Below, piece after piece: positions 15,341-39,022 of a stretch of 40,932 nucleotides of DNA (its first letter is position 1; every line of letters starts with the position of its first letter). Under the pieces are notes generated by a model, which was not told the origin of the DNA, did not search any database, and worked only from the letters and a program-made list of their open reading frames with translations. The stretch is from the IMG/VR virus record IMGVR_UViG_3300025168_000196, positions 1-40,932 of that record. One strand, written 5' to 3'. The stretch comes from a virus. The translations under genes were made by a program, and so were the position numbers.

Positions 15341-15817
15341 ATGACACACCCCACATGGAATTACGATGGTAAGTTAATTACCGAAATATCCGATATGCCT
15401 AAAGATACATACGGATTTATTTATGAAGTTGTTCATACATTAACTAAACAAAAATACATAGGTAAAAAAGTATTATTTTTTGAAAGAAATAAAAGATTAG
15501 GTAAAAAAGCACTTGAAACTTTAAGGTTAGAGAGAAAATCTAAAGGTATAGGAGGAAGAACTCCCCTTAAACAAAAAATAATAACTGAATCAGACTGGAC
15601 ATCTTATTACGGTTCACATAAGAAAATAAAAGAATTATTAGCAAAAGACGGACCTGAGGCTTTTTCTAAGAGAATTTTACAATTCGTACCTAATAAGAAG
15701 CAACTAACGTATTTTGAATGTAAGTACCTATTTATTAATGAAGTACTTGACTCTAGAAATAATTATATAAATGATAATATTCTAGGTAAATTTTACAGGA
15801 AAGACTTTAATTTATGA
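15341..15817 (+). CDS. GIY-YIG family endonuclease-like protein
   Basis: A 158-residue protein with the GIY-YIG nuclease core. 'GFIYEV' (residues 25-30) stands for the GIY half and 'KYIGKK' (38-43) for the YIG half, separated by the usual ~10 residues. They are followed by a basic region with Arg residues ('LRLERKSKGIGGRTPLKQK'), 'WTSYYGSHKKIKELL', and a conserved Glu in 'TYFECKYLF' that would bind metal. In the family these are metal-dependent DNA nucleases, either phage homing endonucleases or host-DNA-degrading enzymes. No separate DNA-binding domain is seen, so a stand-alone Seg-like enzyme is the closest guess. Its stop overlaps the next start as ATGA. Confidence 0.72.
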   Translation: MTHPTWNYDGKLITEISDMPKDTYGFIYEVVHTLTKQKYIGKKVLFFERNKRLGKKALETLRLERKSKGIGGRTPLKQKIITESDWTSYYGSHKKIKELLAKDGPEAFSKRILQFVPNKKQLTYFECKYLFINEVLDSRNNYINDNILGKFYRKDFNL

Positions 15818-15975
15818 AACTAAGCAAGATTATACTACAAGAAAGCTCCTCTAGGGAAGTAAAGAAGATAACTGTTCGTGCTATTCTACAATTAGCCAAG
15901 TACTTAAACATCAGCAGAAAAGAAGCTAAGCAATACTTAATAAACGCAGCTAATGAATTAGGTGATTTAAAATAA
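15814..15975 (+). CDS. Small leader-bearing protein (53 aa)
   Basis: The 53-residue reading frame begins 'MKLSKIILQESSSREVKKIT' and ends 'NELGDLK'. Its ATG overlaps the stop of the GIY-YIG gene, and it fills exactly the otherwise empty gap before the next gene. The first ten residues match the recurring leader of this window, ending in Leu-Gln-Glu followed by Ser, a fit to the (L/I)-x-E cleavage rule of T4-type prohead proteases. The rest ('VRAILQLAKYLNISRKEAKQ') looks like a small basic helix-turn-helix-like bundle. I infer a small capsid-internal DNA-binding protein, unproven. Confidence 0.65.
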   Translation: MKLSKIILQESSSREVKKITVRAILQLAKYLNISRKEAKQYLINAANELGDLK

Positions 15976-15979
15976 CCAG

Positions 15980-16417
15980 ATGATTAAACTAACAGACATT
16001 TTACTTAAAGAAGACGGCCACGGAGAAGGATATGAAGAAGGTAACGTAAAGTTACTAGGTGATGTAATTCTACCTATTGATAAAAAAATGGTACTTCAAG
16101 CTGAAGAAGATAAATATAATAGAGGTCTCTTAGTTACCAATAATAAAGATAAGAGTTACGATATAGCGTACTGGGCAGATGAATTTAAACCGTACCCTAT
16201 CGAAGTAGAGATAGACGGTAAATCTGTTGCGAAAGAAGCTAAGGTAATAAAATTATTATTTCATCCAGAAATGAATGAATCAGTAGTTACTGAATCTAAA
16301 GGTGCTAAAAATTATTTTGATGATTTAAAATTTAATTATCAAAAAGCATTTAGATATTTAGAGGCAGATGAAAAAGAAGAATATAAACAATTAGTTAAAG
16401 ATTACTTTTCTAAATAA
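15980..16417 (+). CDS. Leader-bearing hypothetical protein (145 aa)
   Basis: Begins 'MIKLTDILLKEDGHGEGYEE': the shared leader, with Leu-Lys-Glu at residues 9-11 as a possible prohead-protease site, although the following Asp is less usual. Residues 25-100 form a compact beta-rich domain ('KLLGDVILPIDKKMVLQ', 'EVEIDGKSVAKEAKVIKLLF'). After a linker with 'VVTESKG' comes a helical end ('FDDLKFNYQKAFRYLEADEK'). The function is not recognised. It starts 4 bases after the 53-residue gene, within a run of leader-bearing genes, which suggests a capsid-internal protein. Confidence 0.62.
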   Translation: MIKLTDILLKEDGHGEGYEEGNVKLLGDVILPIDKKMVLQAEEDKYNRGLLVTNNKDKSYDIAYWADEFKPYPIEVEIDGKSVAKEAKVIKLLFHPEMNESVVTESKGAKNYFDDLKFNYQKAFRYLEADEKEEYKQLVKDYFSK

Positions 16418-16441
16418 AGTAATCACTAAATTTTTAAACGG

Positions 16442-17227
16442 ATGATAAAATTAAAAGACGTAATAGGATATCCATCTCTAAAGTATCACTTAGACAACAA
16501 ACTCTCATTGCATGAGCATGTCTACCGTTACAACTCTAAAGCCTTTATACAATTGTTTAAAGAAGCAAGAGAAGCTCTTAGAGACGAAGCTATTGAGTTA
16601 GACGAAGCAGATATAGACCTTATTGAAACGACCGATATAGGTGAATATGGTGAATACAATGGACTTAAAGTACCCTTAGACTTACCTATGGTATCATCTA
16701 ATTATAATCCTCTGTTCGAAATAGGTGCTCTAATCGATCGAATGATCGAAGATGAAGACTTAATAGACGAAGCAGCTTCTATAAATGAAATGATAGACTT
16801 TGATATGATCAAAGAATTGGTAGAGTCAATAGGAGGTAACATAAACATGGACAAATTTAGAAAAGCAGTTTCTATCCAAAACGAAAGTTTTGATTACAAT
16901 GGATTTGAAATGATAAAAGCTTCAGTTGACTACATAGCCGAAGCAGATTATAAGGGGAAAAAAGTAGCTCTTAACAAACCTAAAAGAGGAGGAAGCAAAA
17001 AGTTTTATGTTTATGTAAAATCTAAGAAAGGAAATGTGAAAAAAGTATCTTTTGGAGACACAGGCCTTTCAGTTAAACTTAAACAAAGAGGCGCTAGAGC
17101 ATCTTTTGCTGCTAGACATAAATGTTCAACTAAGAAAGATAAAACTAAAGCAGGTTATTGGTCTTGTAATATTGGCCGTTACTGGAAATCATTAGGCGGT
17201 GGATCAAATTTCTCGGGATACTGGTAG
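16442..17227 (+). CDS. Leader-type protein with basic Cys-containing C-terminal module
   Basis: A 261-residue protein. The N-terminus ('MIKLKDVIGYPSLKYHL') is a variant leader without an immediate cleavage site. Residues 30-165 are acidic and helical. The last ~90 residues form a basic module with 'KVALNKPKRGGSKKFYVYVK', 'KVSFGDTGLSVKLK', 'ARASFAARHKCSTKKDKTKA' and 'GYWSCNIGRYW'. This matches, from memory, a small phage module (DUF5872-type) attached to varied phage proteins, with two Cys and a His that could bind metal. The module is preceded by Ile165-Ala-Glu167|Ala168, the same residues around the cut site as in T4 internal protein leaders. It could be released as a DNA-binding peptide. 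Overlaps the next gene by 29 bases. Confidence 0.65.
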   Translation: MIKLKDVIGYPSLKYHLDNKLSLHEHVYRYNSKAFIQLFKEAREALRDEAIELDEADIDLIETTDIGEYGEYNGLKVPLDLPMVSSNYNPLFEIGALIDRMIEDEDLIDEAASINEMIDFDMIKELVESIGGNINMDKFRKAVSIQNESFDYNGFEMIKASVDYIAEADYKGKKVALNKPKRGGSKKFYVYVKSKKGNVKKVSFGDTGLSVKLKQRGARASFAARHKCSTKKDKTKAGYWSCNIGRYWKSLGGGSNFSGYW

Positions 17228-17711
17228 ACTAAAGCAATTTATAGAGTTCTGTAATTCTAATTTTGGTGACTCTTATAACTTAGGAGGCAGTCTGTGTGAT
17301 TATTTCTATATTAAAAACTTTAAACTAAAAGAAGTTAATGATTACGATATAATTTTAGATCATAATCATATTGGGTTTGACTATTTAGAAAATTTAAGAG
17401 CTGTAAAAGAATGGAAATTTCAAGGTGACTTACGCTATATAGGAGAAGAAAGCAACGCACAACAGGTATTTAAATCCAAAGTTAAAATAAACTCAGATAT
17501 CTACACTGTAGATTGGATGTTCGGACATACTATAAAACTTCCTCATGAAGTTATTGATATTGAATTTGAAGGGGTAAAAACCAAACTTACCTCTAAAAAA
17601 TTACGAATAGATATATTAAAAAATATAGCATCTAATAAATTTCAACAAATATTTTTTCAAAATAAAGGTAAAAAGAAATTAAGTTCGTATATTACTAAGA
17701 CTTTAATATGA
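17199..17711 (+). CDS. Nucleotidyltransferase-fold protein
   Basis: A 170-residue protein with a pol-beta-like nucleotidyltransferase signature: 'LGGSLCDYF' (Gly29-Gly30-Ser31), then 'NDYDIIL' (Asp48-x-Asp50) and a third acidic residue in 'YTVDWMFG'. The Gly-Ser to Asp spacing is slightly longer than the classical pattern. Members transfer nucleotides to proteins, RNA or small molecules; minimal versions act in toxin-antitoxin and defence systems. The GTG start at 17199 lies inside the previous gene (29-base overlap); no better start is visible. It ends in an ATGA overlap with the next gene. Substrate unknown. Confidence 0.55.
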   Translation: MDQISRDTGRLKQFIEFCNSNFGDSYNLGGSLCDYFYIKNFKLKEVNDYDIILDHNHIGFDYLENLRAVKEWKFQGDLRYIGEESNAQQVFKSKVKINSDIYTVDWMFGHTIKLPHEVIDIEFEGVKTKLTSKKLRIDILKNIASNKFQQIFFQNKGKKKLSSYITKTLI

Positions 17712-17971
17712 GTAAACCTTATACGCAATTAATAAAAGATGATTATATTATAAGAGATTTTCTATATAATACACCTGCTATTGAATTTGTTTGGCACAGA
17801 GATAAAGAAGATAGGATAGTACAGGCTATGCACGATACTGATTGGTTATTTCAATTAGATAATGAGATACCAAAGAGATTATCTAAAAATAAACTATTTA
17901 TACCTAAAGAGACGTACCACCGTTTGATTAAAGGAACAGGTGATTTAAAAGTAAAAATATATGAACTGTAA
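17708..17971 (+). CDS. Small conserved phage-type protein (87 aa)
   Basis: An 87-residue protein beginning 'MSKPYTQLIKDDYIIRDFLY'. The core 'VWHRDKEDRIVQAMHDTDW', 'FQLDNEIPKRL' and 'IPKETYHRLIKGTGDLKVKI' looks well folded and resembles a small protein I recall from marine T4-like phages, with no function assigned. Conserved-looking His, Asp and Arg residues might bind a ligand or metal. Its start overlaps the previous stop (ATGA), and its stop overlaps the start of a Cys-rich micropeptide by 11 bases. Confidence 0.6.
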   Translation: MSKPYTQLIKDDYIIRDFLYNTPAIEFVWHRDKEDRIVQAMHDTDWLFQLDNEIPKRLSKNKLFIPKETYHRLIKGTGDLKVKIYEL

Positions 17972-18026
17972 CTGTAAAGATTGTAACTGCACAAAGTCTT
18001 GTAGCTGTAATTGCTGTGATTGTTAA
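17961..18026 (+). CDS. Cysteine-rich micropeptide, metallothionein-like (21 aa)
   Basis: The ATG at 17961 opens a 21-residue frame, 'MNCNCKDCNCTKSCSCNCCD' plus a final Cys, ending at TAA 18024-18026. Nine of 21 residues are Cys, arranged as C-x-C, C-x-C, C-x-C-x-CC-x-C, the spacing seen in metallothioneins and other metal-thiolate cluster peptides. It fills the gap between two genes: its start overlaps the upstream stop by 11 bases and the next ATG is 3 bases after its stop. The other residues are Asn, Lys, Asp, Thr and Ser, which suits a soluble cytosolic metal binder. Expression is not proven. Confidence 0.6.
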   Translation: MNCNCKDCNCTKSCSCNCCDC

Positions 18027-18029
18027 AAT

Positions 18030-18284
18030 ATGAGACTATCAGATATCATTCTTAATGAAGCATATATAGATAAACTAGCCAGTCAGTTTTCAAAGGCTAA
18101 CCCTCACCTAGACTTTTATGTTAAATTCGGTGAAAGAATAGATGTTAAAGGATCTCAGCAAGATTTAATTAACTTTGGCACTAAACACGATGGTAAAAAA
18201 TTTGGAGAGTACCTAGACTATGAGGTGTTTTCTATAGATGATGATGAAAGAGGAGAAATAGTTAGAATAGTAAAAATAAAATAA
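18030..18284 (+). CDS. Leader-bearing small protein (84 aa)
   Basis: Begins 'MRLSDIILNEAYIDKLASQF': the shared leader with Leu-Asn-Glu10|Ala11, a good match to a T4-type prohead protease site. The remaining ~74 residues alternate short helices and strands ('FYVKFGERIDVKGSQQDLIN', 'EVFSIDDDERGEIVRIVKIK') and look like one small alpha/beta domain. No known family is recognised. It lies between the Cys-rich micropeptide and another leader-bearing gene. A capsid-internal role is inferred only from the leader. Confidence 0.62.
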   Translation: MRLSDIILNEAYIDKLASQFSKANPHLDFYVKFGERIDVKGSQQDLINFGTKHDGKKFGEYLDYEVFSIDDDERGEIVRIVKIK

Positions 18285-18293
18285 GTTTAAAGA

Positions 18294-18485
18294 ATGAAAC
18301 TAGCAAAAGTTATTTTAGAGAGTAAGAAAATAGTTACTAGAAAATCTTTAACTCTTACTGAAAGAGATGTAATATTATTGTCTGAAACTATATCTAAAAA
18401 GCTATTTGAGTATATTGATGTTGAAAATACTGATATACTTAATAAAGCGGTTCGATCTGCTATAGACGAACTTACAGAGATATAA
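18294..18485 (+). CDS. Leader-bearing small protein (63 aa)
   Basis: Begins 'MKLAKVILESKKIVTRKSLT': the shared leader with Ile-Leu-Glu9|Ser10. The mature part would be ~54 residues, helical, basic at first and acidic later ('ERDVILLSETISKKLFEYID', 'AVRSAIDELTEI'). This is a plausible internal-protein size, since several T4-type internal peptides are this small. It is the last gene before a 53-base gap and the primase gene. Confidence 0.6.
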   Translation: MKLAKVILESKKIVTRKSLTLTERDVILLSETISKKLFEYIDVENTDILNKAVRSAIDELTEI

Positions 18486-18488
18486 GTT

Positions 18489-18535: not shown

Positions 18536-18538
18536 TCT

Positions 18539-20241: not shown

Positions 20242-20242
20242 C

Positions 20243-20263: not shown

Positions 20264-21151
20264 ATGAAAAAGATAACATTTATACTTGCCCTACTTTTAC
20301 TAACAAGCTGTGCTAACTTTAAACTAGCTACGCTTAACCATACCCCAATAGTTACAAAAGAGGGAATAGTAGTAGATGTGATCGATAGTGAATCTTCACT
20401 TTTTAGGAAGTTTAATAACGATAGTAGGTTTAGGTGGGACTATACTAAGTTTGCCATGGACCAAGACTTACGTTGGTACTATTCATTTTATAGTAGAAAT
20501 AACTTATGGAGATATAATAGAAACGTTACTCCTTGGGACTTATATGTAAACAGATACGATTACTGGTTTGACTGGAATTTTAAGTTCGGTAACAGTTTAT
20601 TTAATCATTATGATCCATATAGGTTTAGAACCTGGGGATGGAATAGCTACGATCCGTATTACGGTAACTTTAATTTATGGAACAGCTCTTCTATGGCTTA
20701 TATGAACAAATACAGACAAAGTAATCAAATAGATATTGAAAATAAAGTAAGAAATAACAGAGTAAGGTCTAGAACTATAGTTACTAATAATAGTAATAAT
20801 GTTAGAGTTTACACTAGACCAGAGTTAAACGAAGATAAACTTAGACAATCAGTTAATTTACTCAAAGGTAGAAATAGTAATATAATAGTAAGAGAATATA
20901 ATAACCCAAATAATATAGAAAATGATAAAATTATCAGATCTAATCCTAGAATCTACGTCAGGCCCGAAGGTGGTAGTAATGGCGGGAGGGTCTGGAGCAG
21001 GGAAATCACACCTCCTCCGACAGTTAGACCTCAAGTCTCTCCCCCTAATCAATCCAGACAAATACGTGGAGGATCCAACACATCCAGCGTACAACAAACT
21101 AGGACCAGCAGCCAGAGCAGCGGACCAAGAAGCTCAGGACCTCGTAGATAG
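20264..21151 (+). CDS. Phage-encoded lipoprotein rich in Trp/Tyr/Asn/Arg
   Basis: A 295-residue protein with a clear lipoprotein signal: 'MKKITFILALLLLTSC', lipobox Leu13-Thr-Ser-Cys16, so it should be exported and lipidated. Residues 60-150 are very rich in Trp, Tyr, Phe, Asn and Asp ('RFRTWGWNSYDPYYGNFNLW'). The end is Ser/Gly/Pro/Arg-rich and finishes 'SSGPRSSGPRR'. This layout resembles lipoproteins of Bacteroidota. Possible roles are superinfection exclusion, envelope modification or lysis; none is shown. The last ~76 codons lie inside the next gene in another frame, an unusually long overlap. Preceded by a TATTTATA element. Confidence 0.72.
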   Translation: MKKITFILALLLLTSCANFKLATLNHTPIVTKEGIVVDVIDSESSLFRKFNNDSRFRWDYTKFAMDQDLRWYYSFYSRNNLWRYNRNVTPWDLYVNRYDYWFDWNFKFGNSLFNHYDPYRFRTWGWNSYDPYYGNFNLWNSSSMAYMNKYRQSNQIDIENKVRNNRVRSRTIVTNNSNNVRVYTRPELNEDKLRQSVNLLKGRNSNIIVREYNNPNNIENDKIIRSNPRIYVRPEGGSNGGRVWSREITPPPTVRPQVSPPNQSRQIRGGSNTSSVQQTRTSSQSSGPRSSGPRR

Positions 21152-21848
21152 TAAACAATCTTTTGTTTGGGATACTACAGCCAGTAACCCTAAGAAAATA
21201 AAAGAACTTACTACAAAAGGATTTAATGTATACATGGTAATGGTATATGCTCATCCTATGGTATCATATGTTTCAAACTTTAAGAGAGAGAGAAATGTTC
21301 CTGGATCAGCTGTATTTTCTACTTGGAGAAACGTTTATCAGTTAATTCAAGATTATGCTAAGATGACTAAAGGTAACTTTTCTTTATTTGTAAATGCAAG
21401 ACCTGGATTTGAAAAAGAGGTAAAGGGCTTTGATACTGCAGCAAAAAATGGTGCACAAGGTATAAAAGACTACCTACAGAGATACTCAGAAGAAAATAAT
21501 ATAGAAGGATCTTCTTTTAGAAGCCCTATAAAACTTTCTGATGAGGAAAATCAAGAGTATATTAATGCAACATCTCATATGGATTACGATAGAGAAAACT
21601 ATAGTGAAGATAGAGCTTTAAAAAAATATTTTCAAGATTGGTACAAAAAGAATGGAGTAGGACCTGGAAATGATAAAATGACCGCTAAACTAAAAAGCTA
21701 CAGAACAAGTAAAGAAAAAGCAAAGAAAAAAGATGAAGAGATATTAGAGAATATAGCTGATATGCTTTTTAGTCCTATTTTTAACTCAAGATTAGTTAGC
21801 TCAACACCAAGAGAAATTGACAGTAAACTACAGGACTTTTTAGCATGA
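20922..21848 (+). CDS. Leader-bearing P-loop kinase, zeta-toxin-like
   Basis: A 308-residue protein. The start is fixed by the shared leader 'MIKLSDLILESTSG', with Ile-Leu-Glu10|Ser11. A Walker A motif follows at once, 'VVVMAGGSGAGKSHLLRQL' (Gly22-Ser29). Next come 'LINPDKYVED' and 'FVWDTTASNPKKIKEL', where Asp and Arg positions suit a zeta-toxin/polynucleotide-kinase-like phosphotransferase. The C-terminal third is charged and helical and not recognised. It could phosphorylate a nucleotide, nucleic acid end or sugar nucleotide. The first 230 bases overlap the lipoprotein gene in another frame. It overlaps the next gene by ATGA. The leader predicts packaging in the capsid and injection of a matured enzyme. 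Confidence 0.75.
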   Translation: MIKLSDLILESTSGPKVVVMAGGSGAGKSHLLRQLDLKSLPLINPDKYVEDPTHPAYNKLGPAARAADQEAQDLVDSKQSFVWDTTASNPKKIKELTTKGFNVYMVMVYAHPMVSYVSNFKRERNVPGSAVFSTWRNVYQLIQDYAKMTKGNFSLFVNARPGFEKEVKGFDTAAKNGAQGIKDYLQRYSEENNIEGSSFRSPIKLSDEENQEYINATSHMDYDRENYSEDRALKKYFQDWYKKNGVGPGNDKMTAKLKSYRTSKEKAKKKDEEILENIADMLFSPIFNSRLVSSTPREIDSKLQDFLA

Positions 21849-23062
21849 TAGCACTATACCCAGGAGCTTTTAAACCACCTCATAGAGGACACTTTGAAAT
21901 AGTACAAAGACTACTTGACGGTACTATTAAGGGTAAGGTATATGGACTGGATAACTATAAACAAGCCGGTAATAATGTATTAGACAAAAGCTTTGATAAG
22001 GTAGAAAAGGTAGATAAGGTTGTTATCTTTATAGGGGGTAATGAAAGAAACGGTATTAACAAAGAGCAGTCAGCTGCTATATGGGAAATATATAAAAAGT
22101 ATATACCTAATTTAGAAATAATAACAAAGGAAGGTAATCCTATGACTCTTGCAAGGGATTATGCTTCTGAAAATAACGATAAAGAATTTTACTCAGTTAC
22201 AGGTATAAGAGAAAAAGATGACCTTAGAGATTTAGGGAGAATATCAGCATTTAAAAAAACCCCTAATGTTAAAGGATTATCAGTTACTTCAAATGATAGT
22301 AATGAAATCAGAGCTACTAATTTTAGAAAAGCTATTCTAAGTGGTAATTTAGATAAAGTAGCAGATTTTTTTCCTGCAATGTTAAATAGACAGGAAATGT
22401 TAAAAATATTAAATATGTTAAAATCAAGCATTGTATCCGAACAAATGAAGGATGAGTTGAAAAATGTTATTACTGATATCTTTACTACTAAAGATGATAT
22501 TGAAGAATACAATAAAGGCACACAAGGTACACATATACAACCACAAGCTGCTATTAAATCAAAAGATAAAGCACATTTGATTACTCTTTATAAAAGAATA
22601 CAGAGTCAGATAGGAGGAGATAATATTTCTATTAGGTTTATGCAAGACCATATTAGAGTAAGCATCGTTGATGAGTGGAAAAAAACCGGTTTCGACTTTA
22701 CACCTTTTATGGGATCTATTCTTGAATATATGATAGATCAAAAAATGAATATATCACCACTGCCAGAAATAAAAATTAAAAAAGATGTAGCCGAAGCATC
22801 AAGCGTTTTTGGTCGAACTGCTTATTATAATCCAGAACTTAAAGAAGTAGTACTCTACACTGAAGGTAGACACCCTAAAGATATTTTAAGATCTTTTGTG
22901 CATGAAATGGTTCATCATATACAAAATCTGGAAGGTAGATTAAAAGGCTACGGAACTACAAACACTAATGAAGATGAAGCATTAGTTGAAATTGAAAAAG
23001 AAGCTTACATGGTAGGCAATATTACTTTCCGAAATTGGGAAGATAAAATTAAAAATCAATAA
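21845..23062 (+). CDS. HxGH nucleotidyltransferase fused to zinc metallopeptidase domain
   Basis: A 405-residue two-domain protein. Residues 1-170 are a cytidylyl/adenylyltransferase-like domain: 'ALYPGAFKPPHRGHFEIVQR' with the HxGH motif, 'IGGNERNGINKEQSAAIWE', and 'SNEIRATNFRKAI' in place of the ISxTxxR motif. A helical linker follows. The last ~90 residues are a metallopeptidase-like domain: 'SFVHEMVHHIQNLEGRL' with His353-Glu354-xx-His357, and 'EIEKEAYMVGN' as a possible third ligand. This fusion resembles one I recall from marine phages, without known function. No N-terminal leader is present, presumably because the HxGH strand must start at residue 3. It is sandwiched between a kinase and a phosphatase gene. 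Confidence 0.75.
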   Translation: MIALYPGAFKPPHRGHFEIVQRLLDGTIKGKVYGLDNYKQAGNNVLDKSFDKVEKVDKVVIFIGGNERNGINKEQSAAIWEIYKKYIPNLEIITKEGNPMTLARDYASENNDKEFYSVTGIREKDDLRDLGRISAFKKTPNVKGLSVTSNDSNEIRATNFRKAILSGNLDKVADFFPAMLNRQEMLKILNMLKSSIVSEQMKDELKNVITDIFTTKDDIEEYNKGTQGTHIQPQAAIKSKDKAHLITLYKRIQSQIGGDNISIRFMQDHIRVSIVDEWKKTGFDFTPFMGSILEYMIDQKMNISPLPEIKIKKDVAEASSVFGRTAYYNPELKEVVLYTEGRHPKDILRSFVHEMVHHIQNLEGRLKGYGTTNTNEDEALVEIEKEAYMVGNITFRNWEDKIKNQ

Positions 23063-23067: not shown

Positions 23068-23610
23068 ATGGGAAAATTAGTAGATTTATTAGAAGCGTAT
23101 CCGCTTCCTGAAGAAAAAGTAAACCCTCCTTATCAAATATACTGTGATATGGATGGAGTATTAACAAATTTTGAAAAGCGTTTTGAGCACTTTACAGGAA
23201 AACATCCTCAAGAGTATGAAAAAGAATTTGGAGTAGAAGCATTTTGGCATTTAATAGATGTTAAGGTAGGAGTTAAATTTTGGGTAGGCATGGACTGGAT
23301 GCCTAAAGGAAAAGCACTGTGGGACTTTATAAAACATTACAATCCCAAACTATTAACCTCTCCTTCTAGACATGATACATCAAGATTAGGAAAAAATCTT
23401 TGGGTTAAAAATAAACTAAGCCCTAAGCCTAAAACTATATTTGCTTTTTCTAAAAGTAAACAAAATTATGCAAACGAAAATAGTATATTAATCGACGATA
23501 AACCGTCAAACATAGATGAATGGCAAGCAGCCGGTGGTATTGCTTTTAGAGTTAGAAAAGGCGATATTAATGATGCACTAAAAGGATTGAAAGAGTTAGG
23601 TTATGAGTAA
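23068..23610 (+). CDS. HAD-family phosphatase (5'-nucleotidase-like) with leader
   Basis: A 180-residue HAD-superfamily protein. Motif I is 'YCDMDGVLTNFE' (Asp27 nucleophile, Asp29), motif II is in 'PKLLTSPSRHD', a Lys lies near 'FAFSKSKQNYA', and motif IV is 'SILIDDKPSNIDEW' with an Asp pair. The layout resembles 5'(3')-deoxyribonucleotidases, which remove phosphate from nucleoside monophosphates, though polynucleotide phosphatases share the fold. The N-terminus 'MGKLVDLLEAYPLPEE' fits the leader pattern with Leu-Leu-Glu9|Ala10, so the enzyme may be packaged and trimmed. It starts 5 bases after the nucleotidyltransferase gene and overlaps the next by 8 bases. Confidence 0.8.
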   Translation: MGKLVDLLEAYPLPEEKVNPPYQIYCDMDGVLTNFEKRFEHFTGKHPQEYEKEFGVEAFWHLIDVKVGVKFWVGMDWMPKGKALWDFIKHYNPKLLTSPSRHDTSRLGKNLWVKNKLSPKPKTIFAFSKSKQNYANENSILIDDKPSNIDEWQAAGGIAFRVRKGDINDALKGLKELGYE

Positions 23611-25371: not shown

Positions 25372-25563
25372 ATGCCATCAAAATTAAAACCATCTGCAAA
25401 AAAATACGTAAGGGATGCTAGAGGTAAAATGACTAAAAAATGGTCATGGGAACACTATACTCCTGCTACTACATCAACAGTTGAACTAAAAAAGCTATTA
25501 GAAAATTCTAGTTATAAAAGAAAAAAGAATATTATACTTAAAGAACTAGCAAAAAGAGCATGA
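25372..25563 (+). CDS. Small basic conserved phage-type protein (63 aa)
   Basis: A 63-residue, strongly basic protein beginning 'MPSKLKPSAKKYVRDARGKM', with 'KWSWEHYTPATTSTVELKKL' and ending 'IILKELAKRA'. I recall similar short proteins in marine T4-like phages, function unassigned. High Lys/Arg content suggests nucleic-acid or ribosome contact. It overlaps the next gene by ATGA, so the two are probably co-translated. Confidence 0.6.
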   Translation: MPSKLKPSAKKYVRDARGKMTKKWSWEHYTPATTSTVELKKLLENSSYKRKKNIILKELAKRA

Positions 25564-26816
25564 ATTTAATTCAACTTATACTTGAAGGTATTACTTATAA
25601 GATTCCAAATTTCAATTTTGAATGGGAGGAAGCAATAAGATACCCTGAGTTTAAGAAACTTGGTAAACAAGCTTGGATTAGTATAGCATCTAAAGGAAAA
25701 GGAGTTTCTATTGATTCAGCTAAGGATATTAGCAACACAGATGCAAACAAACCGGGCTCTTTTAAACTACTTGATAAAGATAAACAGAAAAGAACTCTAC
25801 TTCAAATTAAATCCGGTACTGTTGAGATGCCAATCATTGCAGTATATCCAGATGGCCATAAAGAGTTATTAGGAGGTAATACTAGACTTACAGCTTTGAT
25901 GCATAAGAACGGTAAAGCTACTGTTTGGATGTTTGATGTACCAGAAGATATTTCTACTAGTTTAAATGAGGATTTAACCTTATCTCCTTTTGATTATGAC
26001 CAAGATGGAAATGAATCTAGAATTAAGAGAGATATTAATAATAAAAAAGGATGGAGAAGATTAGGATCTAAATCTTCCCAAAATATAGCTATTAAAAAAT
26101 ACTTAGATAAATATACTTCAGGTTATAAATGGAGTAATCCTCCTAAATCAGAAAAGTTTTCTGATGAAAATGATAAGATGTACAAAACTCCTTACATAAT
26201 GTATGTACACCTACTTCAAACATCAGAAGGAAAAAATAATATAATTGATGCTTTAAGTGGTATGGCTGTTAATGAGCCTGATAATACTATGAAAAAGATC
26301 TTACAAGCTTTATTTTTAGTCTTTTCAAATAAAGAAGATCAATTTAAAAAAGTATATACTCAATATAAAAGTATGATTGAGAAAAATGCTAATGATGATT
26401 CAGGAGCTAATCCATTTGCTGCTTTAAAATATGCAAGTGAAAATTTCAATAATAAAGTAGAAATATTTAATAAATTTGTAAGAAATGGTTGGAGTGCTGG
26501 AAAATTTAATTTAAATGAAGCAATCGTAGGTGATAAAATCGTTTGCGATAACTGTGGATGGGAATGGAAAATTAAAGATGGTGGAGATGATTTATATATG
26601 TGCCATAAATGTGACCATAATAATACACCAACAGCACTTGAAAACTTTAAAGACGGTAAAAAGAAAGGTAAATCTAAACCAGGCAGAGTAAAGAAGTCCG
26701 GTGCTAGCTGTAATGGATCTGTTACGGATCTCAGAAAGAAAGCTAAAAATGCATCTGGAGAAAAAGCTAAAATGTACCACTGGTGTGCTAACATGAAAGG
26801 CGGAAAGAAAAAATGA
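25560..26816 (+). CDS. Leader-bearing ParB-like protein with zinc ribbon and basic tail
   Basis: A 418-residue modular protein. The leader 'MNLIQLILEGITY' has Ile-Leu-Glu9|Gly10. Residues ~75-135 resemble a ParB/sulfiredoxin-type nuclease or NTPase fold: 'MPIIAVYPDGHKELLGGNTR' followed by 'LTALM'. A helical middle follows. At Leu318-Asn-Glu320|Ala321 there is a second possible prohead-protease site, directly before a zinc ribbon (Cys329, Cys332, Cys348, Cys351) and a basic end with 'GRVKKSGASCNGSVTDLRKK' and 'YHWCANMKGGKKK'. That end module recurs, as I recall, on different phage proteins. I infer capsid packaging and release of a DNA-binding C-terminal piece. Overlaps the next gene by ATGA. 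Confidence 0.68.
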   Translation: MNLIQLILEGITYKIPNFNFEWEEAIRYPEFKKLGKQAWISIASKGKGVSIDSAKDISNTDANKPGSFKLLDKDKQKRTLLQIKSGTVEMPIIAVYPDGHKELLGGNTRLTALMHKNGKATVWMFDVPEDISTSLNEDLTLSPFDYDQDGNESRIKRDINNKKGWRRLGSKSSQNIAIKKYLDKYTSGYKWSNPPKSEKFSDENDKMYKTPYIMYVHLLQTSEGKNNIIDALSGMAVNEPDNTMKKILQALFLVFSNKEDQFKKVYTQYKSMIEKNANDDSGANPFAALKYASENFNNKVEIFNKFVRNGWSAGKFNLNEAIVGDKIVCDNCGWEWKIKDGGDDLYMCHKCDHNNTPTALENFKDGKKKGKSKPGRVKKSGASCNGSVTDLRKKAKNASGEKAKMYHWCANMKGGKKK

Positions 26817-32165: not shown

Positions 32166-32810
32166 ATGAGAAAAGCTGAATTAGAAAATATCATATTAGA
32201 AGCTTATAAAGAGGTACTTAACGAAAGTTTATTAGACCAATTAAACGAAGAAGAACCTGAAGAAGAGCCTGCCCCTGAAGAAGCACCTGATATGGATGCC
32301 CCTAAAGATACTGTTCTAGAAGATGCAACCGATAAAATACTAGGTAAGTTTCCCACAGTTAAAGCCGCTTTAATAAAACTACAGTCAGAACAATTTAAAG
32401 AGTTTGTTGAATCAATAGATTGGGTTTCCCCTAGACCTAGTTCATTTAGAATTAACCTTAAAAACGGCCAAGACTACATTCTTAAATGGATGGGAGATGG
32501 ATTTCAAGCTCAAATTCAAGGTAAAAGATACTATATTAATAAGATAGATGATTATCAGCAAGCATTAGATAAGTTAGAAGTACTTTATAGAGAGTCACCA
32601 ATGAAAGGAGCTGGAGAAGGAGAACCTGCTGATACTGACACCGGAGGTGGTGGTGGTGGAGGAGGAGGCGACTTTCCCGGCGGAGATGGAGGAGGAGGAG
32701 CTGGTGGAGGAGAACCTGATATTCCTTTACCGGGAGGAGATGATGGAGGAGGAGCTGATTTATCAGATGAACCTGTAGACTTTGAAGCAGGAGAAGAACC
32801 AGACGCATAA
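32166..32810 (+). CDS. Leader-bearing acidic protein with Gly-rich tail
   Basis: A 214-residue protein. The N-terminus 'MRKAELENIILEAYKEVLNE' has two stacked sites, Ile-Leu-Glu12|Ala13 and Leu-Asn-Glu20|Ser21. A Glu/Pro-rich segment follows. Residues 55-145 form a compact domain with 'FKEFVESIDWVSPRPSSFRI' and 'NGQDYILKWMGDGFQAQIQG'. The last 65 residues are a Gly/Asp-rich low-complexity tail ('GGGGGGGGGDFPGGDGGGG'). The acidic character and position upstream of terminase suit an internal head or scaffold component. It ends in five consecutive in-frame TAA codons. Confidence 0.65.
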   Translation: MRKAELENIILEAYKEVLNESLLDQLNEEEPEEEPAPEEAPDMDAPKDTVLEDATDKILGKFPTVKAALIKLQSEQFKEFVESIDWVSPRPSSFRINLKNGQDYILKWMGDGFQAQIQGKRYYINKIDDYQQALDKLEVLYRESPMKGAGEGEPADTDTGGGGGGGGGDFPGGDGGGGAGGGEPDIPLPGGDDGGGADLSDEPVDFEAGEEPDA

Positions 32811-32832: not shown

Positions 32833-33144
32833 ATGAATAATAATTTTGATCTTAAGAAATTCTTAGCAGAGAATAGAGCTAACAACAGTAAAGCAATCAA
32901 CGAAATAGACCCAGACCTTTTAAGAAGAGCACAAGGACCAGCTCCTAAAAATGCAGCTGCTAGTTTAGCAAAAAGAAAAAAAGAAATAGACGCAAAACGT
33001 GCTGGTAAACTACAAGTAAGTAAGGGATCTAACGCTGAACAAGAGCAGAAAGTAATTGATTTTGCTAATGCTGCAATCGCACTTATGGACGAACAACCAG
33101 GTACAAGCGCAGAAGCTGCTTTACAAACGGTATTAGAAGCATAA
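32833..33144 (+). CDS. Leader-bearing small Ala/Lys-rich protein (103 aa)
   Basis: I place the start at ATG 32833 rather than the in-frame ATG 32782, because the longer form would run through the end of the upstream gene and add only an Asn-rich stretch. From 32833 the protein starts 'MNNNFDLKKFLAENRANNSK', giving Leu-Ala-Glu13|Asn14, a leader like those of its neighbours. The middle is basic and Ala-rich ('AAASLAKRKKEIDAKRAGKL'); the end is 'AEAALQTVLEA', with another Leu-Glu|Ala-type site. A small capsid-internal protein is inferred. Its TAA overlaps the next ATG by one base. Confidence 0.65.
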   Translation: MNNNFDLKKFLAENRANNSKAINEIDPDLLRRAQGPAPKNAAASLAKRKKEIDAKRAGKLQVSKGSNAEQEQKVIDFANAAIALMDEQPGTSAEAALQTVLEA

Positions 33145-34388
33145 TGAACCTTATAGACAAAGTCATACTAGAATGGTCCTATAAGACCAGAAAAGGATAC
33201 CCTGACTTTAATAGTCAAGAGGATATGGCTTTGTTTGAATCTATATTTGGTTTTGACCCTACCCTTATAGAATTAAAAAAGTTCAACTACAATATACTCA
33301 CACCAGAAGCACAGGAAATAGCTACTGTACTTATAAAGATTTTAAATATAGAAAAATCACAAATCCAACCTGATACTAAGAATCATGTCGTTATTTACGA
33401 CGATGCTCGCCCAGCGTTGATTAAAAAGTTAGAAGACGACGGTAGATATGGACCTCCCGGTGGAGTACGTAACAATGTTTTTAAAGTAGGAAAAGTTGCT
33501 ATAATTTTTAAACCAGATAAGACTAGTGGAGAATACTTCGACTTAAAACCACAAAAATTAGGATTAACTCTCGATAGTAGAGTAAAATTAAAAATTTCAA
33601 AACAGGAATTACTAAAAGGGATTGATGCTGCTTCAAAACTTAGTGAAGAACAGAAAAAAGTTATAAAGTATTTAACTAATAAGAAAAATAGACCTACTGA
33701 TGAAGAGGTAGTAAGTGCTTTCGAAAACAAATATTTCTATAATGAATTTTTTAAAAACCTTGGTGAAGTCTTAGGAGCTTATAATTACGGTGAAACTATA
33801 GGAGCAGATGAAGTAGTTTTCCCTAAAGCAGGAAATTACCCTCTAATAGATTACATTCTTTATAAAGGAGAAGACCAAATACAGGTAAGCGCAAAATCGT
33901 CTAAAAGTCCAGGTAATACCGTTAAGCTAGAAAGTTTAGAAAGACTAGTAAAAAGCAAAGGAGGTAAAATTGACACTAATTTACAAAAAATTATTACTAT
34001 AGTTAATTCTAATACTGTCGTTACAGGAGCTTTTGAACTTATAGATGAATTCGGTTCTAATACACTTAAACAACAAAAAGAAGAGTACCTAGAAGAGTTC
34101 ACTACATTTCCTTCTCTCGATAAAGAAGGGTATGATGAAATAGCACACCAAAAGAGAATCCTACTAGAGAAGCAAATTATAAAAGAGCTTAATCAAGATT
34201 ATAATTTTTCTGATCTGTTTAATCAATACGTTGCTGTAAAGTACGTAAAATACGACATTACTATCCCAGGACTGGAAGAAAATTCAAAAGTTATAGAAGG
34301 AGGTCAATTTTATACCCCATTGAAGAGTAAGAATTCAAAAAGACATGACAGTGATAAAATTGGTTTAGATATAAAAGAATCTAAGTAG
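33144..34388 (+). CDS. Leader-bearing protein, possible restriction-type nuclease
   Basis: A 414-residue protein starting 'MNLIDKVILEWSYKTRKGYP', with Ile-Leu-Glu10 followed by Trp, which is unusual after the cut. The central part contains 'AGNYPLIDYILYKGEDQIQV' leading into 'SAKSSKSPGNTVKLESLERL'. An Asp about 11 residues before a Gln-x-Ser-Ala-Lys strand resembles the D-(x)n-(E/Q)xK core of restriction-endonuclease-fold enzymes. That assignment is tentative. The gene lies directly upstream of terminase. If packaged and injected, a nuclease or nuclease inhibitor would be a sensible cargo, comparable in concept to the T4 internal protein that counters host restriction. No other family recognised. 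Confidence 0.6.
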   Translation: MNLIDKVILEWSYKTRKGYPDFNSQEDMALFESIFGFDPTLIELKKFNYNILTPEAQEIATVLIKILNIEKSQIQPDTKNHVVIYDDARPALIKKLEDDGRYGPPGGVRNNVFKVGKVAIIFKPDKTSGEYFDLKPQKLGLTLDSRVKLKISKQELLKGIDAASKLSEEQKKVIKYLTNKKNRPTDEEVVSAFENKYFYNEFFKNLGEVLGAYNYGETIGADEVVFPKAGNYPLIDYILYKGEDQIQVSAKSSKSPGNTVKLESLERLVKSKGGKIDTNLQKIITIVNSNTVVTGAFELIDEFGSNTLKQQKEEYLEEFTTFPSLDKEGYDEIAHQKRILLEKQIIKELNQDYNFSDLFNQYVAVKYVKYDITIPGLEENSKVIEGGQFYTPLKSKNSKRHDSDKIGLDIKESK

Positions 34389-34402
34389 TTTAAAAATAAG
34401 TT

Positions 34403-35977
34403 ATGGCACAAGACATAAAAAAGATCATAGCACAGGAGTACATCAAGTGCGCCAAAGATCCGGCATACTTTATGAAGAAGTATTGCTTTATTCAACATCC
34501 TACTAGAGGTAGAATACTATTTGCCCTTTACCCGTTTCAAGAAAAAATACTACATTTATTTAGAGATAATCAGTATATAATTACACTTAAGTCCAGACAG
34601 CTAGGTATATCAACTCTATCAGCTGCTTATAGTTTATGGTTAATGCTTTTTCATAAAGATAAAAACGTCCTAGCACTAGCAACTACACAAGCAACAGCTA
34701 GAAATCTTGTAACTAAAACTATTTTTATGTACGATCAGCTACCTAAATGGTTAAGGTTAAGAGCTGTAGAAAAGAATAAGTTATCTTTAAGATTAAAAAA
34801 TGGGTCTAAAATCACTGCCAAATCTTCTAACGCTGATGCAGCAAGATCAGAGGCAGTATCATTACTATTAATTGATGAAGCAGCATTTATAGACAATATA
34901 GATGAAACATATACTGCAGCACAACAAACGTTAGCTACCGGTGGACAATGTATGGCACTGTCTACTCCTAACGGAATAGGTAACTGGTTTCATTTAACAT
35001 GGGAAAAGGCTGAAACAGGTGAAAACTCCTTTTTACCTATAAGATTACCATGGACGGTGCATCCAGAAAGAAATGAAACTTGGCGTCAACAGCAAGACAG
35101 AGACTTAGGCCCTAGAATGGCCGGTCAAGAATGTGACTGCGATTTCTTATCCTCCGGTGACACAGTATTTGAACCTGAAGATATAAGTTTTTACGAAGAA
35201 ACGTACCAAAAAGACCCTATGGAGAAAAGAGGAGTTGATGGTAATTTATGGATTTGGGAAGGAGTAGACTACAGCAAATCGTATATGGTTGTAGCGGATG
35301 TTGCTAGAGGAGATGCTACGGATTATTCTGCATTTCATATATTTGATATAGAAAACTGTGTACAAGTAGGTGAGTATAAAGGAAAGATATCTCCTAAAGA
35401 TTTCGGAAATGTACTTGTAGGAATAGCAGCTGAGTATAACGATGCACTATTAGTTGTTGAAAATGCTAATATAGGATGGGCTACAATAGAACAGGTAATG
35501 GAAAGGGAATATAGAAATTTATACTATAGCCCTACTAATAATAGAGACACAGTAGAATCCTATATGAACAAATTTGAACGTGATAAATTGGTACCCGGCT
35601 TTACTATGTCGGCTAAGTCACGTCCATTAGTAATCGCTAAAGCGATCGAGTATATTAGAGAACATTCTGTGCATGTACAATCAAAAAGGCTAATGGCTGA
35701 GATGAGAGTATTTATATGGAAAAACGGTAAAGCACAAGCTCAAGATAGATATAATGATGATTTGATTATTTCTTTTGCAACTGCTTTATATGTAAGAGAT
35801 ACTGCATTAAGACTAAGACAACAAGGTATGGACCTAGCTAGAGCTTCATTATCTTCGTTTACCAACCTTAATGCCAAGAACCAAGCTGTCATTAAAACAG
35901 TTGGTAATCAAGTAAAAAATCCTTATATTGTTAATACACCAGGAGGCGAAGAAGATATCTCTTGGTTATTAAAATAG
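34403..35977 (+). CDS. terL: Terminase large subunit (DNA packaging ATPase/nuclease)
   Basis: A 524-residue TerL of the T4 gp17 type. The ATPase has a deviant Walker A, 'TLKSRQLGISTLSA' (64-71), Walker B 'SLLLIDEAAF' (154-159) and coupling motif 'ALSTPNGIGN'. The RNase H-like nuclease has 'VVADVARGDATDYSAF' (Asp299), 'LLVVENANIG' (Glu353) and 'DRYNDDLIISFA' (Asp452/Asp453). It cuts concatemeric DNA and pumps it into the prohead through the portal encoded next. It starts 14 bases after the leader-bearing putative nuclease gene. No small terminase is seen in this window. Confidence 0.95.
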   Translation: MAQDIKKIIAQEYIKCAKDPAYFMKKYCFIQHPTRGRILFALYPFQEKILHLFRDNQYIITLKSRQLGISTLSAAYSLWLMLFHKDKNVLALATTQATARNLVTKTIFMYDQLPKWLRLRAVEKNKLSLRLKNGSKITAKSSNADAARSEAVSLLLIDEAAFIDNIDETYTAAQQTLATGGQCMALSTPNGIGNWFHLTWEKAETGENSFLPIRLPWTVHPERNETWRQQQDRDLGPRMAGQECDCDFLSSGDTVFEPEDISFYEETYQKDPMEKRGVDGNLWIWEGVDYSKSYMVVADVARGDATDYSAFHIFDIENCVQVGEYKGKISPKDFGNVLVGIAAEYNDALLVVENANIGWATIEQVMEREYRNLYYSPTNNRDTVESYMNKFERDKLVPGFTMSAKSRPLVIAKAIEYIREHSVHVQSKRLMAEMRVFIWKNGKAQAQDRYNDDLIISFATALYVRDTALRLRQQGMDLARASLSSFTNLNAKNQAVIKTVGNQVKNPYIVNTPGGEEDISWLLK

Positions 35978-35979
35978 AC

Positions 35980-35987: not shown

Positions 35988-36003
35988 ATTAAAACTTACC
36001 TTA

Positions 36004-37908
36004 ATGGCGGATAAATCCTTATTTGGCAGACTTAAGACACTTTTTTCAAACGATGTAGTAATTAGAAACGTCGGAGGAAAAGAACTTAAAATTGCTGATG
36101 TTAACAAAATACAGAATACCGGTAAATATCAAACGAATTCTTTAGTAGATAGGTTTAGTAGACTCTATATCTACAATAATAAGAATATATATAATCCTAA
36201 TATTAACTATCAGACATTAAGGATACAGTTATATTCGGACTATGAAGTAATGGACACTGATCCAATTATAGCTTCTGCTTTAGATATAATAGCTGACGAA
36301 GCAACGGTTAAAAACGATCAAAACGAAATCCTAGCAATACAATCTTCAGATGAAAATATTCAAAGAGTACTTTACAATTTATTTTACGATGTACTAAATA
36401 TAGAATTTAACTTATGGTCTTGGACTAGGAATATGGTTAAGTATGGAGACTTCTTCTTAAAATTAGAAATCTCTGAAAAGTTTGGAGTATACAATGTGCT
36501 ACCTTACACCGTATACCATATGATAAGAAGAGAAGGAGAAGACCCAGAAAATCCTTCTAAAGTGCTTTTTCAATTAGATCCAGACGGACTAGCCTCATCA
36601 CAGAGTACTAACTATTTACCAAGAAGACGTAAAAAAAATGAAAAGATAATAGATTTCGATAATTACGAAATAGCTCACTTTAGATTAATATCTGATACTT
36701 CCTACCTTCCTTACGGTAGGTCTTACTTAGAACCAGCTAGAAAGATATATAAACAAGTTACTTTAATGGAGGATGCGATGTTAATTCACCGTATAATGAG
36801 AGCACCAGAAAAGAGAATGTTCTATATAAATGTAGGTAACGTTCCACCAAATGAAGTAGAGCAGTTTATGCAAAAGACTATTAACTCTATGAAAAAGACT
36901 CCTTATGTAGGAGAAGATGGTCAATACAACCTTAAGTTTAATATGCAAAATATGATGGAAGATTTCTACCTACCTGTAAGAGGAGGAGATACTTCTACTA
37001 GAATTGAAACTACTAAAGGTTTAGAATACGACGGTACCACCGACGTTAATTACCTACTTAATAAAATGTTTGCTGCTCTTAAGATACCTAAAGCTTATTT
37101 TGGGTATGAAGGAGATTTAAGCGGTAAAGCTACATTAGCAGCAGAAGATATAAGATTTGCTAGAACAGTAGAAAGAGTGCAAAAAATAATGGAATCAGAA
37201 CTAACTAAGATAGCTCTGGTACACTTATACTCTCAAGGATTCTCAGGAGAAAGTTTAACTAATTTTGAAATTAAGCTTACTACTCCGTCTATTATATTTG
37301 AACAAGAAAAAGTAGCATTACTTAAAGAAAAAGTAGATTTAGCTGCTCAAATGAAAGATAGCAAATTATTCTCTTCAGACTATATTTATGAATCTATATT
37401 TAATTTATCTGAAGATCAATATATGGAAATGAGAGAGCTCGTCAGAGAAGATTCTAAAAGAGCATTTAGAATAGCTCAAATAGAAGGTGAAGGCAACGAT
37501 CCTGCTAAGTCAGGAACTACATACGGTACTCCACATGACTTAGCTTCTATGTACGGTAGAAGAGCTACTTCTACACCAAAAGGCGGTGGACCTGATGATG
37601 TACCAACCGGTTATTCAGAAACACCTAGTGAACCAGAATGGGGAGAACCAGGACCTGAAGGTGGTAGACCTACAGAAAAAGCTTCTGTTTACGGTACTAA
37701 TGATGCTTTAGGAGGACGTGATCCTTTAGGTGTACACGGCATGAAAGGAGGCTACCCGTCAGATAATGACAATGTAGCTGAAAACTTATCTACACAGGCT
37801 GTTTATCATAGAAATAAACAAGATCTTAAAAATATAGTTTTTAAAAAACAAGCAACTAAGGAATCTAAGTTGCTAAGTGAAGACAATATTAAAGATTTAG
37901 AGAATTAA
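36004..37908 (+). CDS. Portal protein (T4 gp20-type)
   Basis: A 634-residue protein directly after terminase. Portal-like features include 'YSDYEVMDTDPIIASALDII' near residue 80, 'NLWSWTRNMVKYGDFFLKLE', 'PYGRSYLEPARKIYKQVTLM', 'RAPEKRMFYINVGN' and 'KMFAALKIPKAYFGYEGDLS'. These fit the gp20-like portal family, in which twelve subunits form the DNA channel at the special vertex and nucleate head assembly. The last ~130 residues are Gly/Pro-rich and flexible ('RRATSTPKGGGPDDVPTGYS'), which may hang inside the head or be trimmed by the prohead protease. Gene order matches T4 gene 20. Confidence 0.9.
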   Translation: MADKSLFGRLKTLFSNDVVIRNVGGKELKIADVNKIQNTGKYQTNSLVDRFSRLYIYNNKNIYNPNINYQTLRIQLYSDYEVMDTDPIIASALDIIADEATVKNDQNEILAIQSSDENIQRVLYNLFYDVLNIEFNLWSWTRNMVKYGDFFLKLEISEKFGVYNVLPYTVYHMIRREGEDPENPSKVLFQLDPDGLASSQSTNYLPRRRKKNEKIIDFDNYEIAHFRLISDTSYLPYGRSYLEPARKIYKQVTLMEDAMLIHRIMRAPEKRMFYINVGNVPPNEVEQFMQKTINSMKKTPYVGEDGQYNLKFNMQNMMEDFYLPVRGGDTSTRIETTKGLEYDGTTDVNYLLNKMFAALKIPKAYFGYEGDLSGKATLAAEDIRFARTVERVQKIMESELTKIALVHLYSQGFSGESLTNFEIKLTTPSIIFEQEKVALLKEKVDLAAQMKDSKLFSSDYIYESIFNLSEDQYMEMRELVREDSKRAFRIAQIEGEGNDPAKSGTTYGTPHDLASMYGRRATSTPKGGGPDDVPTGYSETPSEPEWGEPGPEGGRPTEKASVYGTNDALGGRDPLGVHGMKGGYPSDNDNVAENLSTQAVYHRNKQDLKNIVFKKQATKESKLLSEDNIKDLEN

Positions 37909-37912
37909 TACA

Positions 37913-37920
37913 TATTTATA
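37913..37920 (+). promoter_or_regulatory. TATTTATA intergenic element (site 6 of 6)
   Basis: Located 5 bases after the portal stop in a 29-base gap; it extends to TATTTATATATAG and ends 17 bases before the ATG at 37938. Candidate promoter for the scaffold/protease segment. Confidence 0.42.
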
Positions 37921-37937
37921 TATAGTAAACGTATACA

Positions 37938-38792
37938 ATGAGGATAAAACATTCAAAGTATCGCAATACTGGTCTTATATATGAATTGCTGATAAAGCAA
38001 ATCGCTGCTGATGTACTCAAAAATAGAGAATCAGAGGCTATACAGATCTTAAAAAAGTATTACAGCGGTAAAACTACTTTAGCTAAAGAGTATAAGCTAT
38101 ATGAATTTGTAGTTAAAAATAACTCAGTATCTCAAGCAAAAGCAGAAACAATCATTTCTACGATTACTGAGGTATCTAGAAAATTTAATCAAAAATTACT
38201 TAAAGAACAAAAGTATGCTTTGATATCAGAAATAAAAGAAAAGTATAATATCGATGAATTTTTTTCTATCGATGTAAGAGATTATAAAGCATTAGCGTCT
38301 TTATACTGTTTATTAGAAGCACAAAATAATTCTAATATAGTTGACCCTAGCTTTTTAATTAATAATAAAACTACTTTATTAGAACATTTAACATCTAAGA
38401 AACAAAACGCAGATGATGTTAAAGACTCTTTAATAGAGCAATACTCTAAGTACGATAAAGATTTAAAGCTTTTAACCTTTAAAATCTTATTAGAAAAGTT
38501 TAATAGCAAATATAAAGATCTTCTTCCTGAACAGAAGAATATTTTAAAAGAATTTATAACATCTGTTAACTCAAGTAAAAAACTTTTTAACCTAGTTAAT
38601 AAAGAATTTACTAAAATTTCTGAAGCTGTAACAGGCTTAAGTAAAAAAGTGACTGATGATATATTAAAGATTAAATTACATGAAATATCTAAATCTATCA
38701 AACCATTAAAAAGTACTGATAAGGTTGCAGATACTCATTTAGTTAATCTAATGCAATATTACGATCTGGTAAACGAGCTGAAAAGCTTATGA
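37938..38792 (+). CDS. Head-module helical protein of unknown function
   Basis: A 284-residue protein starting 'MRIKHSKYRNTGLIYELLIK'. It is almost entirely helical, Lys/Leu/Ile-rich, with long coiled-coil-prone segments ('VSRKFNQKLLKEQKYALISE', 'KLLTFKILLEKFNSKYKDLL'). There is no known motif and no leader. It lies between the portal and the gp67-like small gene, a spot where T4-type phages carry prohead core or assembly proteins. A role in capsid assembly is inferred from position. It overlaps the next gene by ATGA. Confidence 0.6.
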   Translation: MRIKHSKYRNTGLIYELLIKQIAADVLKNRESEAIQILKKYYSGKTTLAKEYKLYEFVVKNNSVSQAKAETIISTITEVSRKFNQKLLKEQKYALISEIKEKYNIDEFFSIDVRDYKALASLYCLLEAQNNSNIVDPSFLINNKTTLLEHLTSKKQNADDVKDSLIEQYSKYDKDLKLLTFKILLEKFNSKYKDLLPEQKNILKEFITSVNSSKKLFNLVNKEFTKISEAVTGLSKKVTDDILKIKLHEISKSIKPLKSTDKVADTHLVNLMQYYDLVNELKSL

Positions 38793-39022
38793 CTAGGTCG
38801 GAACTAATCCAGTTAGTACGAGAAGTACAACAAGAATTAGACGAAGCTAACGTTACTAACAGTGGCGGAGCATCATTTACACCTGGTGATGGAGCACAGT
38901 ACGCTACACCAGCAGCATACGGAAAGGCTACTCGAGCAATACAAACGCTCAAGAAGCAAGGTTACAAGCAGGTTAGTCGTCCTAAACGACCGTCACATAC
39001 TAAAGGATTTGATTATTTATAA
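38789..39022 (+). CDS. Small prohead core-like protein with leader (77 aa)
   Basis: A 77-residue protein beginning 'MTRSELIQLVREVQQELDEA', an amphipathic helix ending in Leu-Asp-Glu19|Ala20, a strong prohead-protease-type site. The rest contains 'GGASFTPGDGAQYATPAAYG' and a basic end ('KQVSRPKRPSHTKGFDYL'). Its place between portal and scaffold genes corresponds to T4 gene 67, a small core protein cleaved to internal peptides; equivalence is inferred from position and size, not sequence. A TATTTATA at 39014 lies within its last codons and may be coincidental. Confidence 0.65.
   Translation: MTRSELIQLVREVQQELDEANVTNSGGASFTPGDGAQYATPAAYGKATRAIQTLKKQGYKQVSRPKRPSHTKGFDYL

Follow-up and report, generated by a model that had tools for sequence, protein, structure and literature searches.

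Shared N-terminal leaders in the cargo cassette of a marine T4-like phage and their probable role in capsid targeting

The DNA analysed here, IMG/VR virus record IMGVR_UViG_3300025168_000196 (the window, meaning the whole stretch of 40,932 nucleotides), is a 40.9-kb fragment with 33% GC from a marine T4-like myovirus. Its closest isolate is Flavobacterium phage immuto (terminase large subunit, TerL, 78% identical), and hundreds of contigs in IMG/VR are related to it. About eleven unrelated proteins encoded in the window begin with a short leader of the form Φ-x-x-Φ-Φ-x(0-2)-E. We consider it probable that this leader is a capsid-targeting sequence (CTS) working as in the internal proteins of T4, and that the cargo is enclosed in the prohead; it would then be cut and injected. 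Capsid targeting is well supported by the positions shared with the T4 CTS, by the association with a T4-type head and an S77 protease, and by virion data from cyanophage mass spectrometry. Packaging of the window cargo is likely, cleavage after the leader Glu by a gp21-type protease is plausible from the motif, and injection is suggested by analogy with T4. A preliminary description of the window had proposed both targeting and gp21 cleavage of the T4 type; the CTS positions and the cyanophage virions support the former, and the latter is plausible.

The cargo genes sit in a cassette beside the head genes, with which they are presumably co-expressed late. A short amphipathic segment made up of the first 9-19 residues would bind the scaffold core while the prohead assembles and thereby bring the cargo inside. 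A cut behind the Glu by the S77 prohead protease would most likely follow, and the freed enzymes would be injected along with the DNA. The docking partner, the cleavage, the injection and any host effect are what we infer for the window phage.

Leaders and the proteins that carry them

All 11 positions named in the preliminary description are true open reading frame (ORF) starts bearing the leader, and their frequency lies far above the expectations from shuffled sequences, internal methionines and phages with other heads, so that the claim of a shared leader on about eleven unrelated proteins holds. A fixed regular expression found 11 matches in the window, where shuffled N-termini lead one to expect 0.87 and internal Met residues 0.24, although these matches are not one-to-one with the named eleven, as TerL is included and 23068 or similar borderline cases are missed. 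It matches 11 of 41 window genes (26.8%) versus 6 of 215 (2.8%; p=3e-6) in crAss001, phi38:1 and phi14:2, Bacteroidota phages whose heads are of other types; when A/G/S is required after the Glu, the counts are 7 of 41 and 1 of 215. Every leader lies beyond base 15800, where regex leaders make up 37% of called genes (one match, TerL, being a false positive), and the 11 tail genes that come before it are all free of leaders. Leaders likewise occur in 33% of the corresponding cassette genes of G001, a 191-kb relative, versus 4.6% elsewhere, and in 45% versus 5.4% in immuto.

The leader is conserved by position in the P-loop kinase (Zeta_toxin/PNK-like; 20922..21848, plus strand, as are all features given here), which begins MIKLSDLILE|S and is characterised by Pfam, 23 orthologues and an AlphaFold2 (AF2) model. 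Among the 23 orthologues, residues 4, 7, 8, 9 and 10 are nearly fixed, with E10 in 23/23, residues 11-14 are the most variable N-terminal stretch and P15-K16 is invariant. The low entropy at positions 4, 7, 8 and 10 falls on the positions important in the T4 CTS: in T4 IPIII, residues 4 and 7 serve targeting and 8 and 10 processing (PMC9026906), and MKTYQEFIAE of IPIII lines up with MIKLSDLILE of the kinase at the hydrophobic residues 4 and 7, I/L at 8 and Glu 10, the other window leaders being offset by 1-3 positions from IPIII numbering. The leader precedes the folded domains, which begin at residue ~12-15 in the kinase and ~19 in the HAD 5'-3' deoxyribonucleotidase-like protein (23068..23610; MGKLVDLLE|A), and residues 1-9 are the sole segment of the kinase model with pLDDT <50. 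The kinase has a P-loop kinase fold, like that of O-phosphoseryl-tRNA kinase, polynucleotide kinase and zeta toxin (Pfam Zeta_toxin); the preliminary description had also named a kinase and a HAD phosphatase among the leader proteins. PDB sequence searches with the two proteins gave no match. HAD homologues have the leader when the gene sits in the cassette, and those of Caulobacter phage Cr30, where the gene adjoins ribonucleotide reductase genes, and Agrobacterium phage Atu_ph07 lack it and begin at the domain itself. A lipoprotein-like ORF (20264-21151) overlaps the kinase gene (20922-21848) by 230 bases on the same strand in a different frame.

The predicted P1' residue is A, G or S in 8 of the 11 window leaders; the proposed form, (I/L)-x-E followed by A/G/S, fails at 15980 (D), 32833 (N) and 33144 (W). 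Among the remaining carriers, the ORF list gives a 53-residue protein (15814..15975; MKLSKIILQE|S), whose body has no homologue among the TerL-neighbourhood contigs searched, and an 84-residue protein (18030..18284; MRLSDIILNE|A). Bodies resembling the 145-residue protein at 15980..16417 (MIKLTDILLKE|D) stand behind MKL..IIL.E leaders in IMG/VR, and the leader of the 63-residue protein at 18294..18485 (MKLAKVILE|S) is retained in 3 relatives with K or N after the Glu. Further carriers are a 214-residue acidic, Gly-rich protein (32166..32810; MRKAELENIILE|A) and a protein at 25560..26816 (MNLIQLILE|G) with a segment that looks ParB-like by eye, a zinc-ribbon-like segment and a basic tail. The C-terminal basic domain of the latter, KDGKKKGKSRPGRVKK.GASC.GSVT..., is met again in L054, L021, L024, L009 and L069, where both the leader and the middle part differ, which suggests shuffling of leader, variable body and basic tail. 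The 103-residue protein at 32833..33144 (MNNNFDLKKFLAE|N) is nearest to the T4 form, with FDLKKFLxEN retained in relatives, and the 77-residue protein between portal and protease (38789..39022; MTRSELIQLVREVQQELDE|A, ...QELDE|A) is conserved in more than 50 related ORFs.

The 414-residue protein of unknown fold at 33144..34388 starts MNLIDKVILE|W and so resembles the set, but it is doubtful as a cleaved leader: its sequence is invariant through E-W-S-Y in relatives, without a break between leader and linker. Its segment MNLIDKVILEWSYRTKKGYPD is almost invariant across the clade, and the remainder of the protein falls to ~47% identity. The label 'possible nuclease' finds no support, the structural model being of low confidence with no PDB match at E<=0.001. 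The protein at 16442..17227, listed earlier as a leader variant, begins MIKLKDVIGYPS and is not a cleavable leader protein because the Glu is absent, a form conserved in four relatives; its C-terminal part is homologous to an NMNAT-like fusion of the Methylophilales phage Melnitz and to a protein of the Pelagibacter phage HTVC008M. TerL and 24206, the latter matching a looser form of the regex, were rejected as false positives.

The gene order, from tail genes through the cargo cassette to TerL, portal, small genes and gp21, is collinear with immuto. TerL (T4 gp17 type; 34403..35977) begins MAQDIKKIIAQEY, a chance match to the leader regex, and is followed by the portal protein (gp20 type; 36004..37908), collinear with immuto gp20. 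The gp21-like protease announced from 40767 is present as a probable prohead protease of peptidase family S77 with VLRE|S near its own N-terminus (40767..40931), although the window stops 55 codons into the gene and the PF03420 match is weak (E=6.6e-4). A complete gp21 is found in 10 of 11 contigs related to the window, and that of G001 contains GELDHP and ISSRG, corresponding to the conserved S77 segments GELxHP and SSRG. Partial gp21, TerL and portal thus place an S77 protease and a T4-type head in the same phage as the leaders. Two leaderless proteins also lie within the cassette: an NMNAT/cytidylyltransferase-like protein (21845..23062), whose counterparts in cyanophages bear a leader and are virion proteins, and a 1566-residue protein (27464-32164) with short PHROG matches of unknown function, whose G001 counterpart has 951 residues.

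Scaffold tails, prohead sites and virion proteins

One leader type repeats the tail of the scaffold. The gp22 scaffold of the clade ends ...RRMQKLAGIIK, and the leader RRMQKLAGIITE|S copies that tail; the gp22 tails examined on contigs with MQKLAG leaders are variants of one peptide (e.g. ARMQRLAGIN, ARMKKLANIK), and an immuto cassette protein begins MKKQILSEQFRRMQKLAGIITE|SQ. Leader types were compared by the fraction of their matches in IMG/VR that lie at ORF starts, all counts here being among the matches listed. For MQKLAGxxxE, 114 non-redundant matches include 89 plausible gene starts, and the residue after the Glu is always polar or small; for MKLx[KNED]IILxE the figure is 75 of 86, versus 19 of 62, mostly chance-like, for a Glu-to-Lys control motif. 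The leaders are modular: in viral metagenomes, at least 59 bodies unrelated to one another follow the MQKLAGIITE type, and at least 20 follow the MKLx[KNED]IILxE type. All nine long contigs with an MQKLAG leader carry the S77 protease. On contig L498 (5404-6180), two adjacent genes that lie between gp21 and gp22 share the start MSKQFITE(S/A)KRMQ(E/K)LAGI, a tandem cargo with scaffold-tail leaders.

The copy of the gp22 tail in one leader type suggests that the tag occupies the docking site of the scaffold tail. The L-x-x-I-I core of the window leaders resembles K-L-A-G-I-I of that tail, a likeness of pattern only. Scaffold tails of T4 and cyanophages show no clear resemblance to their own leaders, and the tail-copy idea is therefore restricted to the Bacteroidota-type clade. 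We see the case as evenly poised that a large, abundant T4-like clade packages an open-ended set of enzymes tagged with copies or analogues of the scaffold tail, the cargo entering the prohead as a pseudo-scaffold and the injected proteome being readable from sequence.

The phage's own head proteins share the putative cleavage motif. In relatives, QVVAE|A or QIVSE|A of the major capsid protein (MCP) aligns with the FLTE|A site of T4 gp23 and the ELLRE|S site of gp24, which lose 65 and 10 residues, respectively (PMC9958956), and the MCP begins MEINNLLE|SS, like MAKINELLRE|S of T4 gp24. The gp22 of relatives starts MANKDLFKQAIAE|AK, with an AIAE|A motif at the expected site, and their gp21 has LRE|S (TLRE|S) near the N-terminus and LQE|S near the C-terminus. 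MCP, gp22 and gp21 therefore bear at the expected sites the motif that is found in the leaders.

Published virion data from related phages place leader proteins in the particle. In S-CREM2, whose virion proteome was determined by mass spectrometry (Table 3 of PMC10665884), 6 of the 7 proteins with a T4-type leader within the first 30 residues are virion proteins (p=4.9e-4; 196 annotated genes, motif expected 0.46 times), namely an S-adenosylmethionine (SAM) hydrolase, a Cas9-like protein, gp13, an APH-like kinase, gp136 and a cytidylyltransferase; a looser regex gives 5 of 10 (p=0.04). In the Cas9-like gp12 (7704-10313), the motif RFASFMAE|A lies at residues 19-25, possibly behind a mis-annotated start. 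The syntenic cassette of S-SCSM1, which precedes the primase, has 7 of 9 genes (89-93, 95, 97) annotated as virion proteins, including an NMNAT with the leader MKSFLQFLKEA. The T4-GC190 cytidylyltransferase of the same family was found in the S-SM1 virion (PMC3037559), and its P-SSM4 orthologue starts MKKFSAFLKEA. Homologues of the window HAD protein, kinase, 16442 and 17708 occur in the cassettes of HTVC008M and Melnitz, the HTVC008M kinase with the leader MIPFILKEG. Cyanophage virion data and shared cassette genes together thus link the cassette to the virion, beyond the leader alone.

Counter-evidence and alternative explanations

Several observations weigh against T4-like targeting and cleavage. 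The proposed co-occurrence of leader and gp21-type protease, seen on all nine long contigs with MQKLAG leaders, is less clear for the MKL..IIL.E type: S77 was not detected on 4 of 5 long contigs with a match, and it is also present on 5 of 10 control contigs. The same four contigs (L295, L300, L304, L334) lack a Gp23 MCP and may be fragments, chance matches or phages with another head type. The virion evidence stems from cyanophages rather than the window phage or its close relatives, a literature search for an immuto virion proteome having found none, and the cyanophage proteome papers leave room for contamination or carry-over of abundant proteins (PMC10665884, PMC9602691). The window NMNAT is leaderless, whereas proteins of its kind are packaged in other phages, and several virion proteins of the S-SCSM1 cassette, most of those besides NMNAT, lack a clear one; the leader is therefore not the sole route. 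Finally, the residue behind the Glu is A, G or S in 39% of related leaders, against a background of 17%, and it differs even between orthologues of the kinase, so that cleavage may be less strict than that of T4 or partly absent.

This variability, seen in the kinases as E|R, E|D, E|K and E|Q, and the invariance of 33144 across E-W-S-Y are what would be expected if the leader targets the prohead core yet generally stays uncut, the Glu forming part of a docking helix. We regard this as unlikely, since an invariant Glu with four hypervariable residues behind it is what a cut boundary would look like, A/G/S after the Glu exceeds background, and the same motif stands at the expected MCP, gp22 and gp21 sites; some HAD orthologues, moreover, keep the E-A or E-G step despite a one-residue shift in leader length. 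The position of the cassette between tail and head genes would also accommodate an N-terminal helix that docks on a host target or on a late assembly other than the capsid, for example the tail, the neck or RNA polymerase, but the leader type identical with the gp22 tail, the matched T4 CTS positions, the S-CREM2 leader proteins in the virion and the gp24-like MEINNLLE|SS of the relatives' MCP make a target outside the capsid improbable. A shared N-terminus due to chance or to translational or compositional bias (M-K-L, AT-rich starts) might be suspected in a 33% GC genome with many MK starts and a false positive in TerL; it is refuted by the comparison with other phages (p=3e-6), the 23 orthologues, the Glu-to-Lys control and the MQKLAGIITE leader on at least 59 bodies, and we give it almost no credence. 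The targeting leader, most likely cut after its Glu, remains our preferred explanation.

Comparison with known systems

If the leader is predictive, which phage proteins enter the cell first becomes a question for a sequence search and one proteomics test, and sequence alone may reveal which enzymes a phage carries into its bacterial host. The scaffold-tail identity offers a concrete hypothesis for the binding partner of the capsid-targeting sequence. In the open-access literature searched, 'capsid targeting' was found together with 'cyanophage' only in a T4 review (PMC9026906), subscription papers being outside the search. NMNAT-like proteins, kinases and SAM hydrolases have been reported in marine phage virions, contamination not being excluded by the authors (PMC10665884, PMC9602691).

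More distant parallels exist in other phages. In P1, N-terminal residues of DarB suffice to send a protein into the head, but the Dar proteins share no consensus and apparently have no separate scaffold system (PMC9024508). The ejected head proteins of phiKZ and SPN3US carry N-terminal propeptides cut after x-x-E, in this case by S80-type proteases, another family, and mostly longer than 100 residues (PMC5694885). Closer is the Kyanoviridae cassette (S-CREM2, S-SCSM1, P-SSM4, HTVC008M, Melnitz), which has homologous HAD, kinase and other genes near the primase, a leader on several proteins, and products that mass spectrometry placed in the virions of S-CREM2 and S-SCSM1; its leaders are of the T4-like F-x-x-F-L-x-E form, and its NMNAT has a leader whereas that of the window has none.

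The nearest model is T4 itself, where IPI, IPII, IPIII and Alt are unrelated proteins with a short N-terminal leader (hydrophobic 4, 7 and 8, Glu 10) in a head-assembly context with the S77 protease gp21. T4 has about four such cargo proteins, whereas the window has about ten in a 25-kb cassette that includes a kinase and a nucleotidase; its leaders have an aliphatic L-x-x-I-I in place of the aromatic Y/F-x-x-F-I of T4 and fall into several subtypes, and one relative's leader copies the scaffold tail. The system is best read as T4-like capsid targeting with an enlarged, modular and lineage-specific enzyme cargo; what is new is the identity of a leader with the scaffold tail and the correlation of leaders with presence in the virion.

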